Virus record (IMG/VR): IMGVR_UViG_3300042558_000964
Span: 1 to 22,985 of that record
Length of the DNA: 22,985 nucleotides
Strand: one strand, 5' to 3'
DNA from: a virus
Shown: piece after piece, positions 3,995 to 16,775 of the stretch
Layout: each line of letters opens with the position of its first letter
Position numbering within the stretch: position 1 is the first letter of the stretch
Notes under the pieces: model-generated
What the model was told of the DNA's origin: nothing
What the model saw: only the letters and a program-made list of their open reading frames with translations
Databases searched by the model: none
Program-made: the position numbers and the translations under genes

Positions 3995-4870
3995 TCACTT
4001 CGCTCGCATGTGATCGAATAGCACTCGTTCTGCTTTGCCATCCCAGTAAAACCGCAACCAGTGCGAGCCAAGCGGCTTAGGCCCTAGCATCCGCTCAACC
4101 TCCCATCCGCCGTAACCATCGCCCCAAGCATCCTTATATCCGGGACAACGAACGTGTAATTGCTCGTCGTGATAAACATTGCCATGTATGCTCAGTCGCT
4201 GTCTTGTGATCGTGACTGCCCATTCATCGTGAGTATGCCCGGTCAAGACGATCTCTGGATCCGGAGTCATGACCGCGATTCGGTTTGTTTGTATCGTGCC
4301 CCGCGTTACTGGCCCGCCTCCGCCCGTGCCGTGAAAGTGATAGAGCGTCACGGAGTCCTTGGCGCTCTTGCTGCCTTCACCAACGCGAAAACGGAAGATA
4401 ACCCACCCGCCGTATCCGCTCGCTTCTGTGATGCCGCTATGGGCACGCAATCGCCCCGCTAACCTATCCGTCAAGTCGGTTTCGTGTGCCTTGGTTATCG
4501 CGGTTTCGTGGTTGCCTCTGCCCATCACCGCGAAGATGTCTTTGTAAGGCTTGTAGTACTCGTAGGCCGTGTCAACTAATAGGTCAAAGTAGTTGCTACC
4601 TTGATGCTCTGGTCGCAATGCTGACTTGTCTGCTCGTTTGTCCCAACGCCCTTGCATCGCACAAAACAGATCGCCGTTGTCGATGACTGGAGCATTGACA
4701 GCTAGGGCTTCGTCGAGGTGTTTACGCTCGAGAGTTTGATCGCACTTAGGGTTATCGTGGTGGACGTCTGACCGCAATAGCACCCACTGTTCCCAGTCTT
4801 TATTCTTGGTCAACTCGCAATTGATCTCTATCACGTTGCGTTGTAGTTTGTTGAGTCTCCAGCCCATCAT
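3995..4870 (-). CDS. Calcineurin-like metallophosphoesterase, 291 aa
   Basis: The metal-binding motifs are in order: D35-V-H37 (RSDVHHDN), NGD (residues 65-67), GNHE (119-122), HFH (178-180, in LYHFHG) and GHTH (211-214). This is the two-metal phosphoesterase fold. GD is followed by LF rather than the usual second acid, so that motif is slightly atypical. Start ATG 4870 is supported by GGAGGCGGA immediately upstream (second ATG at 4867), giving a 71-base overlap with the upstream Erv1/Alr-like gene. Family members act on nucleic acids, nucleotides or phosphoproteins; phage copies are common but mostly uncharacterised. A DNA end-processing role is possible, but no Mre11-like capping domain is visible. 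Confidence 0.85.
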   Translation of the reverse strand: MMGWRLNKLQRNVIEINCELTKNKDWEQWVLLRSDVHHDNPKCDQTLERKHLDEALAVNAPVIDNGDLFCAMQGRWDKRADKSALRPEHQGSNYFDLLVDTAYEYYKPYKDIFAVMGRGNHETAITKAHETDLTDRLAGRLRAHSGITEASGYGGWVIFRFRVGEGSKSAKDSVTLYHFHGTGGGGPVTRGTIQTNRIAVMTPDPEIVLTGHTHDEWAVTITRQRLSIHGNVYHDEQLHVRCPGYKDAWGDGYGGWEVERMLGPKPLGSHWLRFYWDGKAERVLFDHMRAK

Positions 4871-5267
4871 TCCGCCTCCAGATTGCTTTAGCCTCTTCGA
4901 TGGTCAACTCGGTTTTGCCGAGTTTGCGATTAACCCAGTTGTGTAGATTGTAGCCCCAAAGCCAATAGGCGTTTGGCGATGAGAAGTCGGGCGAATTGTC
5001 CTTGCAGTAGTCCGCAAAGTCTTGCTTGCAACTGCATCCAAAAGCCGGGATAAGTAACACCCAAAGTTCATGCCATTGCGGATCGCATCCTAGATAGCCG
5101 TGCTTCTTCGCCCATGCAAAGCGGCCTTGATTTACTTTGCGCTCCTCCCTGGCCTTTAGTTGCAACTCTGCCGCGTTGTCTGGGATCGTTGGTGCGGGAT
5201 GCTGCGTCAAGGATTGCCTGTCGAGCTTTGGCGTGTAGTCTTCGCGGTTTACAAATATTGTCTTCAT
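4800..5267 (-). CDS. Erv1/Alr-like protein with CxC in place of CxxC, 155 aa
   Basis: The central part resembles the phage branch of the Erv1/Alr sulfhydryl-oxidase fold: WHELWVLLIPAFGCSCKQDF, then DNSPDFSSPNAYWLW, then NLHNWVNRKLGK (HN at 109-110, VN at 112-113), then an IEEAKAIW helix. In the family this is 'iPC-x-x-C-x-x-H-F ... P-x-x-F-x-S ... W-x-x-x-x-H-N-x-V-N-x-x-L-G-K', with FAD-contacting His/Asn and a redox CxxC. Here the cysteines are C78-S-C80, one residue short, and the nearby His of the family is Asp83, so redox activity is uncertain. ATG 5267 overlaps the preceding stop as TAATG. The gene follows directly after a 31-cysteine tail protein. The last 24 residues overlap the metallophosphoesterase frame. 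Confidence 0.6.
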   Translation of the reverse strand: MKTIFVNREDYTPKLDRQSLTQHPAPTIPDNAAELQLKAREERKVNQGRFAWAKKHGYLGCDPQWHELWVLLIPAFGCSCKQDFADYCKDNSPDFSSPNAYWLWGYNLHNWVNRKLGKTELTIEEAKAIWRRNDGLETQQTTTQRDRDQLRVDQE

Positions 5268-6688
5268 TACGGTATTAATGTGATCTTAGTGCGAAGGAAC
5301 GGAACACAAATTGAACTCAGTTCGCGGGTCGTGTAGTTCTGCGTCAGTGAGTATGAATCAACGGTATCGTACCTAGACTGATACTTCGGTATCGCTGGGT
5401 CGTTCACGGCTGTTATGCAGTTCGCACAATCCCACCAGTTACACTCGTTGCGGTCTTCAGGGAATACGCATCCCTCTTGCGGGATTAACTGAAAGCACCC
5501 TTCACCCGATAGGAAATTAGAAGACTGCAACGAGTAAAAAACATCGCTAATTCCATCGAACGTCAACTGCCCAAGCGATGCACTTCTTCCGCTATACAAA
5601 TCACCCTCAACGCCCTGTTGAGCATTGGTACACTCAACATTCCCAGCGATGTCAAATTCGCAAGACTCGTCTTCGCCGTATGCTATAACTAACGCGTTGA
5701 CGCAGGGAACTCCAAAGTCAAGGCAGTAGGCGCATGTGCTTAAAAAAGCATTTGCCCTGCGTGTGCCAGCTTCGTACGGGTCAACGCTTGATCCAAAAGC
5801 GAAGCATATCGGCCCTGATATTGCGGAGGGATCGTTGGTTGAGCAGAATCCTATTTCGCCGCATGGCCACCCGTCAGACGGGTCAAATATTATTTCGTTT
5901 GGTATGTCTTCCGCCGTATCGTAAACCTTATACTTGACTAGCCAATATCTAACGGTATTACCGCCAGACCATCCGTTTGTCAAAGTCGCTGCGTACTGGC
6001 AATCCGGCTCCGGGCTGTGGGACGTTGGCGTAATGCAAACACCGCCATTTATCCCCTCGCAGCAAGCATGGACGCCAGATGTGGAGTAACTGTATGCAAG
6101 ACTGTCGTACGTTGCACCGGATATAAAAATGTCGATTCCTTGAGCGACCTCAACGACATACTTACACTCAACGTCTCCTCCTTCTTCGCATATCATTTCG
6201 CGTTGATAAATGGCAACCCTGAATTCACTTCGGGAGTAATTCACTGAGTCCCATGCACCGATTCTTTTCTGGGCAGTTTTAATCACCGTTCCGCAATTCA
6301 AAACCTCGTCGCAAACATCAGCCGCGCTTACTAGCGGGAATTCATCGAGAAAGGAGCATGTATTATCTGTTTGCTCTCCGAATCCCATCGGAGGATCCAT
6401 CACGTATTTCTTGCTCTTCGTGATCTTCGTTGACACCTGAACCGATTCATCGGCTTGATACATGAATGTCTTTCGGCATTTCGATGAGTAGCCTGGAGTT
6501 CTATACCAGTACGCAACGTTGCAGCAATCGCTAGATGAAAAACCCACCGTGACGCCGTCGATAGGCTCAGACGGAAACTCGTCGTAGATTTCCGTGTATA
6601 TGTCGATCTCGACTTGCGATGCAATGTCTGCAAGTTCTTCCGCTGTCAAGCAGCATTCCGCGCACCCGCATTTTCCAAAACAACCCAT
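5267..6688 (-). CDS. Cysteine-rich tail-tip or fibre-like structural protein, 473 aa
   Basis: A 473-residue protein with 31 cysteines (about 6.6%), starting MGCFGKCGCAECCLTAEELA, so five of the first thirteen residues are Cys. Other clusters are SSDCCN, HACCEGINGGVC, STCAYCLDFGVPC and ECNWWDCANC. Many aromatic and Ser/Thr/Gly residues and short strands suggest a beta-rich, disulfide- or metal-stabilised extracellular-type fold. No signal peptide or membrane helix. It is the last large gene of the tail block, directly abutting the 225-residue gene (no gap) and overlapping the Erv1/Alr-like gene by one base. From its place after the tape measure and tail-tip genes, a distal tail, adhesin or host-contact role is inferred. 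No named family was recognised. Confidence 0.6.
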   Translation of the reverse strand: MGCFGKCGCAECCLTAEELADIASQVEIDIYTEIYDEFPSEPIDGVTVGFSSSDCCNVAYWYRTPGYSSKCRKTFMYQADESVQVSTKITKSKKYVMDPPMGFGEQTDNTCSFLDEFPLVSAADVCDEVLNCGTVIKTAQKRIGAWDSVNYSRSEFRVAIYQREMICEEGGDVECKYVVEVAQGIDIFISGATYDSLAYSYSTSGVHACCEGINGGVCITPTSHSPEPDCQYAATLTNGWSGGNTVRYWLVKYKVYDTAEDIPNEIIFDPSDGWPCGEIGFCSTNDPSAISGPICFAFGSSVDPYEAGTRRANAFLSTCAYCLDFGVPCVNALVIAYGEDESCEFDIAGNVECTNAQQGVEGDLYSGRSASLGQLTFDGISDVFYSLQSSNFLSGEGCFQLIPQEGCVFPEDRNECNWWDCANCITAVNDPAIPKYQSRYDTVDSYSLTQNYTTRELSSICVPFLRTKITLIP

Positions 6689-8918: not shown

Positions 8919-10301
8919 TTAGACTCCGGGGCTTTGGAATTCGATAATGGTTGTCGGCGGTTGCAACTTGTCCTTCAATGCGGTGATCGCCTCGGTGACT
9001 TTGTCGAGTTTACCAACCGTTGCTAGCGTGTTCGCTTCGATCTTCTTTTGCGAGTCGTCAGCCTTGCCCCTAGTAAGCAATCGCGATTCCTTTGCTGCTA
9101 GGTCAGGGGTGCTTATCGTCGCTTTCATTTCCTTCTTTTTGGCTGCTTCTGCGAACTGTGCTTTAGCTGCTGCGATTGCCAAGGCGGTGTCTTTATCAAG
9201 CCCTTGCTGCTGGAGCCTAAATGCTTCCGCTGCTTGCTCGCCTTGCTCCAAGAGGATCTTCTGTTCTTCGAGTCGCTGCAATTCACTCTTGCCTAAATCC
9301 GCGATTCTTTGCAGTCGTGATTTCTCTTCGTCTTGGGCTTTCTTCTTCGCCGCGTCTTTGTCCTGCTCGGCCTTTAGCGTCTTCTCGGCGAACATGATCC
9401 GCTTGATGTCAGCATCGCCTAGCCCCTGATCTTGCAGTTGTGCCCGCCGTGCTTCTTCAGCACTCTTAGTCAGTGCAATGTACTGGTAGCTAACGTTGCG
9501 AAGCGTCGATATGGTTGATTGATCGATCTGTGCTTTCTTCGCTGCCGCTGCATCTTCTGCGGCTTGTTGCTCTTTAATGAGTCGCACTTGCTGAGCATGG
9601 GCACTGTATTTTTCACCAAGTTGATTCTGTTGATTGCGTAAGGCCGCCGCAATCTCCATGTACTTATTCGCTTCGTTCTGCAAGTCAGCAATGACCTCAG
9701 GGCCTTGCTTGCTTGCTGTTGCCTTTTCCGCTTGATCGCTGTAATACTGGAAGGATGCGACCGCGTCATCAACTTCTTTGCCGATAGACTTAAACAAATC
9801 AACCGCTGCTTGTTGTTGCTTATTCGGATCGCGGATTAACGTAAGGTCTTCGAGTTGATCGCCGAACTTGATACCAGCAAGTTTAATCATGTGGTTGGCG
9901 AAGTTCTCCGATTCTTTCGCCGCTGCTTCCATGCGTCCAGCAACGTCATCGATGCCGAATATCATCTCACCGATTGACTTGCCGAATTGGACGGACATAA
10001 CGCCGACCAACGCAACCAATCCGGTCTTAAACGCCATCGCACCCGCGCCGCCTAGTTTCATCACTTCCGAGAATTGGCCTATCTTTTCCGTGATACCTGC
10101 AACACTCTGTGCCGCTGTTGCAAACTCCGCACCGCCCAACTGACCCGCTAAGACTCCAATAAACTCCGTAGACGCTTTCGCCTTCGATCCGACTTCCTTA
10201 ACACCGCTTACCGCGTTTTCAATATTCTTCGCAGCGTAGACCGCTTTTGCGCTTGCTTGATCTTCGGCTTGGATCAGGATTTTTACGGCGTCACCGGCCA
10301 T
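8919..10301 (-). CDS. Tail tape-measure protein, 460 aa
   Basis: Identified by position (after tube and chaperone genes, before tail-tip genes) and by a long helical, Ala/Lys/Gln/Glu-rich body. The N-terminus (VKILIQAEDQASAKAVYAAK, then ENAVSGVKEV) is a typical tape-measure opening. Residues about 75-120 hold the hydrophobic, glycine-rich stretch GGAGAMAFKTGLVALVGVMS and a second SIGEMIFGI, the usual central membrane-like segment. The rest is coiled-coil-like, up to KLDKVTEAITALKDKL. At about 1.5 angstrom per residue, 460 residues suggest a tail near 69 nm. ATG 10301 overlaps the T-domain stop (TAATG) and has GGAGAGCG upstream. No lysozyme or peptidase domain is seen. Confidence 0.8.
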   Translation of the reverse strand: MAGDAVKILIQAEDQASAKAVYAAKNIENAVSGVKEVGSKAKASTEFIGVLAGQLGGAEFATAAQSVAGITEKIGQFSEVMKLGGAGAMAFKTGLVALVGVMSVQFGKSIGEMIFGIDDVAGRMEAAAKESENFANHMIKLAGIKFGDQLEDLTLIRDPNKQQQAAVDLFKSIGKEVDDAVASFQYYSDQAEKATASKQGPEVIADLQNEANKYMEIAAALRNQQNQLGEKYSAHAQQVRLIKEQQAAEDAAAAKKAQIDQSTISTLRNVSYQYIALTKSAEEARRAQLQDQGLGDADIKRIMFAEKTLKAEQDKDAAKKKAQDEEKSRLQRIADLGKSELQRLEEQKILLEQGEQAAEAFRLQQQGLDKDTALAIAAAKAQFAEAAKKKEMKATISTPDLAAKESRLLTRGKADDSQKKIEANTLATVGKLDKVTEAITALKDKLQPPTTIIEFQSPGV

Positions 10302-10621
10302 TATTCGCTCTCCGCTTTAATCCTGTTTTCTTCGTACTTCAAAATCCGCACCGCATCAACAAAGGAGGCTGATTGATCGAGACTTCCACCTGCTACCGGC
10401 GGCAAGCCTTCGTTGAACAAATCAGCCATCGAAACAAACTGGCCGATACTGTCGCAGTATCGATTCGGGCATCCTTTTAAGATCCAACTTCCATTTGTGC
10501 ATTCGTCGCATCCTGTGCCGTTACACGCTGGGCATTCGATCTCAATAGGCTCCGCGTCTGTTCCTTCATCCTCGCACTTCTTGTCGCTGCATCGTCGGCA
10601 AAGTTCTCCCTGCCTAATCAA
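10301..10621 (-). CDS. T domain of tail-assembly chaperone (gpGT-like), Cys-rich, 106 aa
   Basis: This frame lies one step (-1) from the upstream G-type gene and is open across the G stop codon, so it is probably made as part of a 225-residue G-T fusion by frameshifting at 10639-10645; six residues (RLRVAA) would join G to L1 of this frame. Taken alone it would need a TTG start at 10621 with no clear ribosome site. Nine cysteines occur in its first 57 residues (C8, C11, C16, C30, C33, C38, C41, C51, C56), including CPACNGTGCDEC, a DnaJ-like zinc motif unusual for a T domain. It ends directly at the tape measure start, the classic place for GT. The helical C-terminus (SFVDAVRILKYEENRIKAES) could contact the tape measure. 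Confidence 0.7.
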   Translation of the reverse strand: MIRQGELCRRCSDKKCEDEGTDAEPIEIECPACNGTGCDECTNGSWILKGCPNRYCDSIGQFVSMADLFNEGLPPVAGGSLDQSASFVDAVRILKYEENRIKAESE

Positions 10622-14162: not shown

Positions 14163-16775
14163 CTACGCAGAGCGATTACCGAAGATGCCGCGATGATCGA
14201 TTACCGCTGTACCCATCGTCTGGCGGATCTTGTAGAGGTACACGTCGCGGGACATGTCCCAGTCGTTTTCCAGCACTGGGGCCTCTTCGCCACTAAGGAA
14301 GGTCAGTTCCATCGTGTCGACTTGCGAATTGTCGGCGATTGCGTACCAGTTGGTCGAACTGTTCGCATCGAGCAATGCCGTAGCAACAACGGTCAGCGGT
14401 CGAGTCCCGTTGATGCCGTAGAGGCTGGTTACTCCCTCGTTTCCGTTCGACTGTGCAAAGGATTGGCTGTTGACAATCCGCGATGCAGTCGCTGCGTACT
14501 TCTGAGGAACCAACAACACCTTCGGCGAAAGGTTCAGAACCGATCCCCCAAGGCCCTTTTGCTTGCTCATCAACTCGAATGCTTCGTCGAGAGTGGTTTC
14601 GCTTGGAGCCGCTGGGCTGACTGCGGTAATGTTCGATCCGCTTGCGTGCGAAGCAGAGAACAACGCCAAGCCATCAGGCATTACAGGATTACTCAAAAAC
14701 GTGTCGTAAACGAGACGCTCTTGTGTACGTCGAGCCGCTTGCCCTTGCATTGCAGGGATGCGAGAGAGTGCATCGAGGTCGTCGTTGATAACGGTCTCCC
14801 AAGTCACGGTGAATTCAGCACCGAACTTGTCGACCTTGTACGACTTCTTCTGATCGCTCAAGCCCTTTTCAGGGTAAGCCTTGCCCTCTGGTACCATTTC
14901 CAAGTTTGGATACTCGGAGAGTTGCGTCCGGTTGATCTGCTTGAAGTCATCCACGCTAGCCGCTTGCCGAACCCACAGAGCCCAAGTGAATGGGGCCTCG
15001 TCGTAAGCCGCTCGGAGAGTCTTGTTAACCGCGTCTGAGAGGATGTTCTGGAAGCTTCCGGTCGTGTGATACGCATCGGATCGGCGAACCTTGAGACGAT
15101 TAAACGTCCCGGCGTGACCCATCGCCATTCGTGCTACGTCGCCCTTGGTGTGCTTCAATGGGTCGATGCCCATTCGACGTACGCATTCTTCGGCAAGTCG
15201 GTACAGTCCGACATTGCGAAACTCAGCATCGCCTTGGGCAGTCGGTGCCTTGGTGCGTTGGATGTTCCCTTGGAAGCAACGTTGAACCAAGCCAGCCTTA
15301 GCGGCTTGTTCAAACTTGTCGTGTTCCGATTCAGTAACCGTGACGCTGCTGCCAATTGGTTGATTAGCCATCTGTCGAATAATCCTTTGCTGAGCGTCTT
15401 CCAGTGAACAACCGGAGTCAACCAACTCGTCAGCAAAGGTACGCTCAACCTTCGCTAGTTTGGCCGCTGCGTAAATCGATTTCTTTCGCTCGTCGATTGC
15501 TTTCAGTTGTCGAGCAACTTCGCTCTCGACTTTGTATTCCGCTCGAGCAACCTCAGGCTCTTTAGGCATTTCGCCTTCCGCCCTTGCCGCTTCTTCGGTT
15601 GGCTTGTCCATGCCTTCCATCAACTCGACTTCGAGTTCTGGTTTTGCCATGTGATCGGCCATCCACTTGATGATCTCGTTCGGATCGGTCATACCTTCGG
15701 GTAGACCAAGAGACGAGAGTTGAGCCATCAATTGCTCATCCATGCCTTCCTGCCTTTCTGCTTGGTCGTAAGACCGTCTGACCGTGGAATTAGGATCTGC
15801 ACCCGTTGCGCAGATACTCGCGTTGTGAGGCTCCCAAGCGGTAACAATCTCCGCTGGCCCTTCAACTACAACGCCACGTTTCGTTGTGTATGCTTGCCCT
15901 TCCGGGATGTAGATGCGATTGAGGATTACCGCATCGATACTGAAGTCATTCAGATGCCCCTCTTGGTATCGAGTCGCTACGACTTGGCTCTCTGGATCCG
16001 ATGCGAACGAAGGATCGCCAACTAGCTCGCCATCCTGGATTTCGATATTGCGAATCGACCCGAAGACATTGCGGACAGTTCTATCGTTGTGTGAGTCGAC
16101 AATGGGCAATTGATTCTTTGAGTTGCGAAACTGGACGCCGTCCATTAGCAAGACTTGACGAACCATTCGACCGCGTTGTTCGTCGTAAATCTCAATCGGG
16201 GTCTCGGTTGCAATAACCGCTCGACCGTCTTTAGGTGCCGCGAATGCTCGCTGAATCTTTGGGACTGCTGCGATACGCTCGACTTTGTCTGCTGCTTGCA
16301 TTTGTCGTTGCACCTTTTCGCTCCAAGTTTTTCCAGCGTCTCCGCCCCATAACGCCCACGCAATCCGACCGGCTGATGGAAATCCCTTTTGGCCTGGCTT
16401 CCAGCCTTCGCCCTGCTTGTCTACTTCGTGTCTTGCGAAGTAACTGACCATGCGACCGATGGTATCTGGACTCATCGCTTTGCCGTTGCTCAAGTCTCTA
16501 GCTCTTGCAACGCCAACCGGAGTTCCTCCGCGATTGTGTTCGCGTCTCCACTCAAGGCCCTGCTTAGCCTCTTCGCGTACGCCCTCAGGTGGAGTAAAGT
16601 CAATGTCGCCGTACTTCGCTCGTTCGATCTCTTCCGCTGCGTACAATGCCGCGACCTGATCGCTAGCCGCATCCTCCGAAGCATGGCAACCCATTAACTG
16701 GGCTGTATCGTCTTTCACGACACCCCACGGACGCGATATAGGGCAAGCCTTGGTTTGCTTCGTGCTATAGGGCAC
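14163..16775 (-). CDS. Prohead protease / scaffold / major capsid fusion protein, 870 aa
   Basis: A single frame of 870 residues. Residues 11-45 (CPISRPWGVVKDDTAQLMGC followed by HASEDAASDQVAALYA) and 58-155 (DFTPPEGVREEAKQGLEWRR, GRMVSYFARHEVDK, SAGRIAWALWGGDAGKTW) are conserved phage segments of unknown role. At 180-335 lies a prohead protease core with candidate catalytic H229 (VDSHNDR) and S279 (DFSIDA) and an acid near TAWEP. Residues 345-475 are charged and helical, scaffold-like. From about 478 to the end is a Mu gpT-like/HK97-type capsid (GMVSYF-unrelated; e.g. SFQNILSDAVNKTLRAAYDE, WETVINDDLDALSRIPAMQG, ending RGIFGNRSA). Proteolysis would release the capsid domain. GTG 16775 follows GAGGTAGCCA and overlaps the portal gene by 11 bases. 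Confidence 0.8.
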   Translation of the reverse strand: MPYSTKQTKACPISRPWGVVKDDTAQLMGCHASEDAASDQVAALYAAEEIERAKYGDIDFTPPEGVREEAKQGLEWRREHNRGGTPVGVARARDLSNGKAMSPDTIGRMVSYFARHEVDKQGEGWKPGQKGFPSAGRIAWALWGGDAGKTWSEKVQRQMQAADKVERIAAVPKIQRAFAAPKDGRAVIATETPIEIYDEQRGRMVRQVLLMDGVQFRNSKNQLPIVDSHNDRTVRNVFGSIRNIEIQDGELVGDPSFASDPESQVVATRYQEGHLNDFSIDAVILNRIYIPEGQAYTTKRGVVVEGPAEIVTAWEPHNASICATGADPNSTVRRSYDQAERQEGMDEQLMAQLSSLGLPEGMTDPNEIIKWMADHMAKPELEVELMEGMDKPTEEAARAEGEMPKEPEVARAEYKVESEVARQLKAIDERKKSIYAAAKLAKVERTFADELVDSGCSLEDAQQRIIRQMANQPIGSSVTVTESEHDKFEQAAKAGLVQRCFQGNIQRTKAPTAQGDAEFRNVGLYRLAEECVRRMGIDPLKHTKGDVARMAMGHAGTFNRLKVRRSDAYHTTGSFQNILSDAVNKTLRAAYDEAPFTWALWVRQAASVDDFKQINRTQLSEYPNLEMVPEGKAYPEKGLSDQKKSYKVDKFGAEFTVTWETVINDDLDALSRIPAMQGQAARRTQERLVYDTFLSNPVMPDGLALFSASHASGSNITAVSPAAPSETTLDEAFELMSKQKGLGGSVLNLSPKVLLVPQKYAATASRIVNSQSFAQSNGNEGVTSLYGINGTRPLTVVATALLDANSSTNWYAIADNSQVDTMELTFLSGEEAPVLENDWDMSRDVYLYKIRQTMGTAVIDHRGIFGNRSA

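Follow-up and report, generated by a model that had tools for sequence, protein, structure and literature searches.

The window, that is, the whole stretch of 22,985 nucleotides of viral DNA analyzed here (IMG/VR record IMGVR_UViG_3300042558_000964), carries on its minus strand genes for a terminase, a portal, a protease/major head protein, a neck protein, and a tail tube protein. After these structural genes come several uncharacterized genes and then, on the same strand, a cysteine-rich gene (5267-6688) followed directly by an Erv-like gene (4800-5267), with a metallophosphoesterase-like gene next in line. The cysteine-rich gene encodes 473 residues with 31 cysteines, five of which lie within residues 3-13 (MGCFGKCGCAECC), while the Erv-like gene encodes 155 residues. 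The stop codon of the former and the start codon of the latter have one base in common in the sequence TAATG (5265-5269, minus strand). Both open reading frames and their overlap were as described in an earlier note on this DNA. The overlap probably couples the translation of the two genes, and short overlaps or gaps between them were found again in relatives. At its other end, the Erv-like gene shares its final 71 bases (4800-4870, minus strand) with the beginning of the metallophosphoesterase-like gene in a different reading frame, and the C-terminal tail of the Erv protein varied among relatives where the following gene varied. Elsewhere on the minus strand, the head maturation protease and the major head protein are apparently fused in a single ORF of 870 aa (14163-16775), and a 106-aa protein encoded between tail genes (10301-10621) has a DnaJ-like zinc-finger pattern (CPACNGTGCDEC) without a family match at a useful score.

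The earlier note had remarked on a resemblance of the 155-aa protein to Erv1/Alr oxidases. This was borne out by a score of 38.9 bits against the Pfam family Evr1_Alr (PF04777), for which the curated cutoff is 27.6, and most relatives of the protein also exceeded this cutoff. An alignment of 31 phage homologues (designated A3) provided the basis for both an AF2 model and a sequence profile. The model had a mean pLDDT of 84, with helices at residues 32-57, 63-70, 80-90, 98-116, and 123-134. In a Foldseek search against the PDB, the top 24 matches were all Erv/ALR sulfhydryl oxidases with probabilities of 0.96-1.00, including ASFV pB119L and Arabidopsis Erv1 (target TM 0.69), although the E-values were modest, at about 0.007-0.2. 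The profile matched ALR (4e-12), yeast Erv1 (8e-12), and ASFV pB119L (4e-8). A predicted fold unrelated to Erv1 would have refuted the original proposal, and the fold obtained was that of Erv/ALR. No conserved second (shuttle) cysteine pair was found in the Erv-like protein across the 31 homologues of A3. A shuttle disulfide outside the Erv core is common in the Erv1/ALR family, but it is not universal.

The signature of Erv1/ALR is a CxxC active-site disulfide (PMC10598087). The 155-aa protein lacks this signature and has C78-S-C80 instead (5028-5036, minus strand), for which reason we class it within the Erv fold family as a CxC variant, without calling it an established Erv1/ALR oxidase. 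In the alignment with yeast Erv1 and human ALR, C80 corresponded to the flavin-proximal second cysteine of CxxC, which in yeast Erv1 is C133, the cysteine interacting with the isoalloxazine ring, and the first cysteine was shifted by one position to give CxC. The motif was invariant in the 31 aligned homologues, as was WxxxH in helix 1 (W52 and H56; 5100-5114, minus strand), whose W52 aligned with yeast Erv1 Trp95, a residue that stacks on FAD (PMC4721541). The putative FAD-contact helix contains HNWVNRKLGK (residues 109-118; 4914-4943, minus strand), which aligned with Erv1 H162, V165, and K171 and in which H109, N110, N113, and L116 were invariant. The HN-x-VN and LGK segments pointed out previously were accordingly all present, together with the CxC pair. 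Thirteen yeast Erv1 residues have been listed as key for FAD binding (PMC4721541), and nine of these were kept in the alignment with the window protein (Erv1/window: G91/G48, R92/R49, W95/W52, C133/C80, F137/F84, H162/H109, V165/V112, K171/K118, and W183/W130, the last pairing coming via the ALR alignment). The remaining four, Y128, C159, F174, and R182, had no clear counterpart in this alignment. The spacing between the second active-site cysteine and HN was 28 residues in both the CxC and the CxxC forms.

It had also been suggested that the replacement of a nearby His by Asp is odd and that the chemistry might be altered. The Asp lies three residues past the second cysteine in the window motif CKQDF, and Asp is likewise found there in yeast Erv1 (CNWCAKDF) and human ALR (CEECAEDL). 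Since Asp is normal at this position, the His-to-Asp change was rejected as a mark of altered chemistry, and only the CxC part of the suggestion remains, which is reasonable but unproven.

In a homology scan, relatives of the Erv-like protein turned up on 157 viral contigs, and 80 of these contigs were retained; the relatives found were from uncultivated phages. Every readable homologue with a complete region had CxC (CSC, CDC, CTC, CGC, CKC, CQC, or CRC). The possibility that CxC was a peculiarity of the window or a sequencing error was rejected, given its invariance across contigs. The scan says nothing about the frequency of CxxC because its seeds were CxC. Using a CxC-specific DNA pattern, 36 contigs were retrieved, 33 of them real members, while 16 contigs matched a CxxC-specific pattern, every one of them Erv-like by sequence (nine were checked against Pfam). 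These canonical CxxC genes of other phages occupied the same slot, adjoining cysteine-rich ORFs. Two CxxC forms, at loci L145 and L154, had a compact helix 1-2 region, as in the CxC forms, and in a tree of the short Erv domain all CxC rows grouped with these two. We do not claim a single origin of CxC, because support for this grouping was weak (bootstrap 74). L145 and L154 are different phage contigs under one IMG number (2936182689), each with a CxxC Erv gene beside a partner with an N-terminal cysteine cluster, and the gene of L145 is an Erv-GT2 fusion. With the window protein, two glycosyltransferase-fused types, and two CxxC forms as queries, a search of 50,697 cultured-phage records gave no relatives of the Erv-like protein. 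The first of two scans of genome contigs for a cellular home of the protein gave nothing, and the only matches in the second were two cyanobacterial loci that aligned, at 24% identity, with the glycosyltransferase-like C-terminal part of the query; these loci do not constitute a cellular home.

The AF2 model of the 473-aa protein was mostly beta, with a pLDDT of 77.7. Its N-terminal cluster of C3, C7, C9, C12, and C13 (CxxxCxCxxCC; 6650-6682, minus strand) was modeled with low confidence (pLDDT about 42). The model had no credible match in a fold search against the PDB and viral model libraries, and no Pfam, PHROGs, or NCBIfam family exceeded its cutoff for any of the cysteine-rich partners. 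That it is a tail protein, as initially proposed, is therefore supported by gene order only, without homology or a fold match, and we regard it as a probable tail/adhesion-region protein. In an alignment of 13 homologues (mean identity about 39%, minimum 28%), 26 of the 31 window cysteines were invariant, versus 21 of the 442 other residues. The usual cysteine count among the homologues was 34, an even number. C295 and C461 were lost together in L003 and again in L056, and C360 and a second cysteine were both absent in the window. Such paired losses are as expected of disulfide partners, and together with the near-total invariance they fit disulfides, although the evidence is indirect and the events are few. 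Metal binding by the cysteines had been named as an outcome that would speak against the original idea, and the pattern fits disulfides better than metal sites.

In almost every locus, the ORF directly upstream of the Erv-like gene was cysteine-rich or cysteine-clustered. The upstream set comprised 88 non-redundant ORFs in 15 families mutually without blastp similarity. As background served 468 further ORFs on the same strand of the Erv loci, each 200 aa or longer, with a median cysteine content of 1.12% and a 95th percentile of 2.63%. Fourteen of the 15 families exceeded this 95th percentile, the exception being L151, which lies at a contig end, and only one background ORF reached 5.5%. The association of the Erv-like gene with a cysteine-rich gene is far above chance. 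Four to six cysteines within 15 residues, in the first 60 residues, were found in 12 of the 15 unrelated families, and the least cysteine-rich partners tended still to carry such a cluster; start codons were uncertain for some ORFs. In the reverse test, an Erv-like gene followed all 28 readable homologues of the window's cysteine-rich protein, i.e., those with at least 200 bases downstream. The pair, whose lack of conservation would have counted against the earlier proposal, was conserved in both search directions and is a conserved phage module.

With the observed homology and flavin-contact residues, the predicted fold, the invariant CxC, the two-way linkage, and the disulfide-like conservation of the partner cysteines, the two genes probably form a phage-encoded disulfide-making module, in which a flavin thiol oxidase serves the neighboring, probably tail, protein. 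The 155-aa protein would be a compact Erv-fold flavoprotein with the CxC pair adjoining FAD, its binding of FAD and its oxidase activity both being inferred. The CxC pair would accept electrons from the thiols of the co-translated cysteine-rich protein, its inferred substrate, and pass them via FAD to oxygen or another acceptor. In this way, many disulfides (some 15-17) would be introduced into the beta-rich partner, a tail/adhesion protein only inferred to be part of the virion tail, as it assembles in the reducing host cytoplasm. The flexible cysteine cluster of the partner may, speculatively, stand in for the missing shuttle pair. Against such an oxidase module stand the absence of the CxxC signature, the strained CxC ring, the missing shuttle pair, the four Erv1 FAD-contact residues without a clear counterpart, the modest Foldseek E-values, the placement of the partner in the virion by gene order alone, and the lack of biochemical data. 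The idea of a dedicated disulfide helper for the cysteine-rich protein is thus upheld as an interpretation, without a demonstration of oxidase activity.

Oxidation alone also does not explain several glycosyltransferase fusions. The Erv-like domain was fused to GT4 (L021:9447-10763 and L118:3-1250), GT2 (L145:3426-4643), and GT29 (L151:8237-9649) at scores over the Pfam cutoffs, with the Erv domain C-terminal to GT29 in L151, and to a GT8-like domain below the cutoff in L105, L107 (11078-12214), and L108. At least three kinds from unrelated glycosyltransferase families were involved, and on the tree of the Erv domain a minimum of four switches between the fused and the unfused state was needed. 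A cysteine-rich or cysteine-clustered gene was still present upstream in all fused loci with upstream sequence except L151. The fused proteins of L107, L105, L118, and L145 have a zinc-ribbon-like CxxC...CxC segment N-terminal to the Erv domain, and this segment might bind metal or act as a shuttle pair. In a possible but unlikely one-domain version of the oxidase reading, the CxC pair would carry out direct, Mia40-like oxidation next to the Erv flavin, with the flexible N-terminal cysteine cluster of the partner as a shuttle arm acting in trans, and in the fused forms docking would also couple glycosylation to the oxidation of the tail-region protein. It is also rather unlikely that the Erv-like domain has lost its oxidase activity and serves for docking, recognizing the cysteine cluster of the partner and bringing in modifying enzymes, the fused glycosyltransferases among them. 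The GT4, GT2, GT29, and GT8-like fusions, CxC in place of CxxC, and the recurrence of the N-terminal cluster in partners would agree with pure docking, but it would not need both cysteines and the flavin-contact W, H, N, and K residues to be kept, nor canonical CxxC versions in the same slot, and a glycosyltransferase is absent from most of the members found.

A disulfide isomerase or reductase, whose CxC would shuffle or protect the partner cysteines without oxygen-driven oxidation, is a doubtful alternative. Isomerases such as YphP carry a CxC motif, as does the redox protein CsgC (PMC3173608), and a protein with 31 cysteines would require reshuffling, but the fold is that of Erv and not of thioredoxin, and an isomerase has no need of the FAD-contact residues that were kept. 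It is very unlikely that the partner cysteines bind metal or Fe-S clusters which the Erv-like protein helps to load or protect, as the dense CxxxCxCxxCC cluster and the zinc-ribbon-like N-terminus on some fused Erv proteins might indicate, given cysteines distributed across 473 residues, their commonly even number and paired losses, and the absence of a metal-protein family match.

If the disulfide-making module is real, a widespread phage Erv tied to cysteine-packed tail-region proteins would mean that phages override the reducing bacterial cytoplasm for disulfide-hardened parts. The results suggest that phages carry their own machinery for disulfide-locking a cysteine-packed neighbor protein. 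The constant CxC amounts to a natural experiment in Erv chemistry, in which CxC and CxxC can be compared directly in one genomic slot, and the recurrent glycosyltransferase fusions hint at an unexplored maturation step. Compact, self-paired oxidase/substrate cassettes might be of use for producing disulfide-rich proteins in the bacterial cytoplasm.

The window protein shares with yeast Erv1 and human ALR the predicted fold, the motifs GRxxWxxxH and HNxVNxxLxK, xDF past the second cysteine, the terminal W, and a distance of exactly 28 residues from the second active-site cysteine to HN. It differs from them in having CxC and not CxxC, in a helix 1-2 region about 10 residues shorter (an alignment gap), in being phage-borne, and in lacking a conserved shuttle or structural cysteine pair. 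In the Mia40/Erv1 relay, the CPC pair of Mia40 oxidizes substrates and the Erv flavodomain is the electron sink, whereas the phage protein has CxC and the flavin fold in one small domain, and no Mia40 homologue was seen. CxC disulfides are known to be redox-active and oxidizing, with potentials of -139 mV for CsgC, -167 mV for a CGC peptide, and -130 mV for YphP (PMC3173608). CsgC and YphP thus offer a redox CxC of oxidizing potential, but their folds are unrelated to the phage protein and they have no flavin. A virus-encoded Erv fold, as in the phage protein, is found in ASFV pB119L, mimivirus R596, poxvirus E10R, and baculovirus Ac92/P33. For these proteins, the formation of virion disulfides in a reducing cell is known or proposed, and we know of no Erv oxidase from a eukaryotic virus that is co-translated with a cysteine-rich tail-region protein or fused to a glycosyltransferase. 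Erv enzymes of eukaryotic viruses form virion disulfides in reducing compartments, and baculovirus BSOX functions in disulfide formation during virion assembly (PMC11654684). In the literature searched, virus Erv-type oxidases came only from viruses of eukaryotes, and no report on phage Erv or phage disulfide systems was found, with incomplete coverage. The Erv oxidases of ASFV, mimivirus, poxviruses, and baculoviruses belong to viruses infecting eukaryotes and have kept CxxC, whereas the phage form has CxC.
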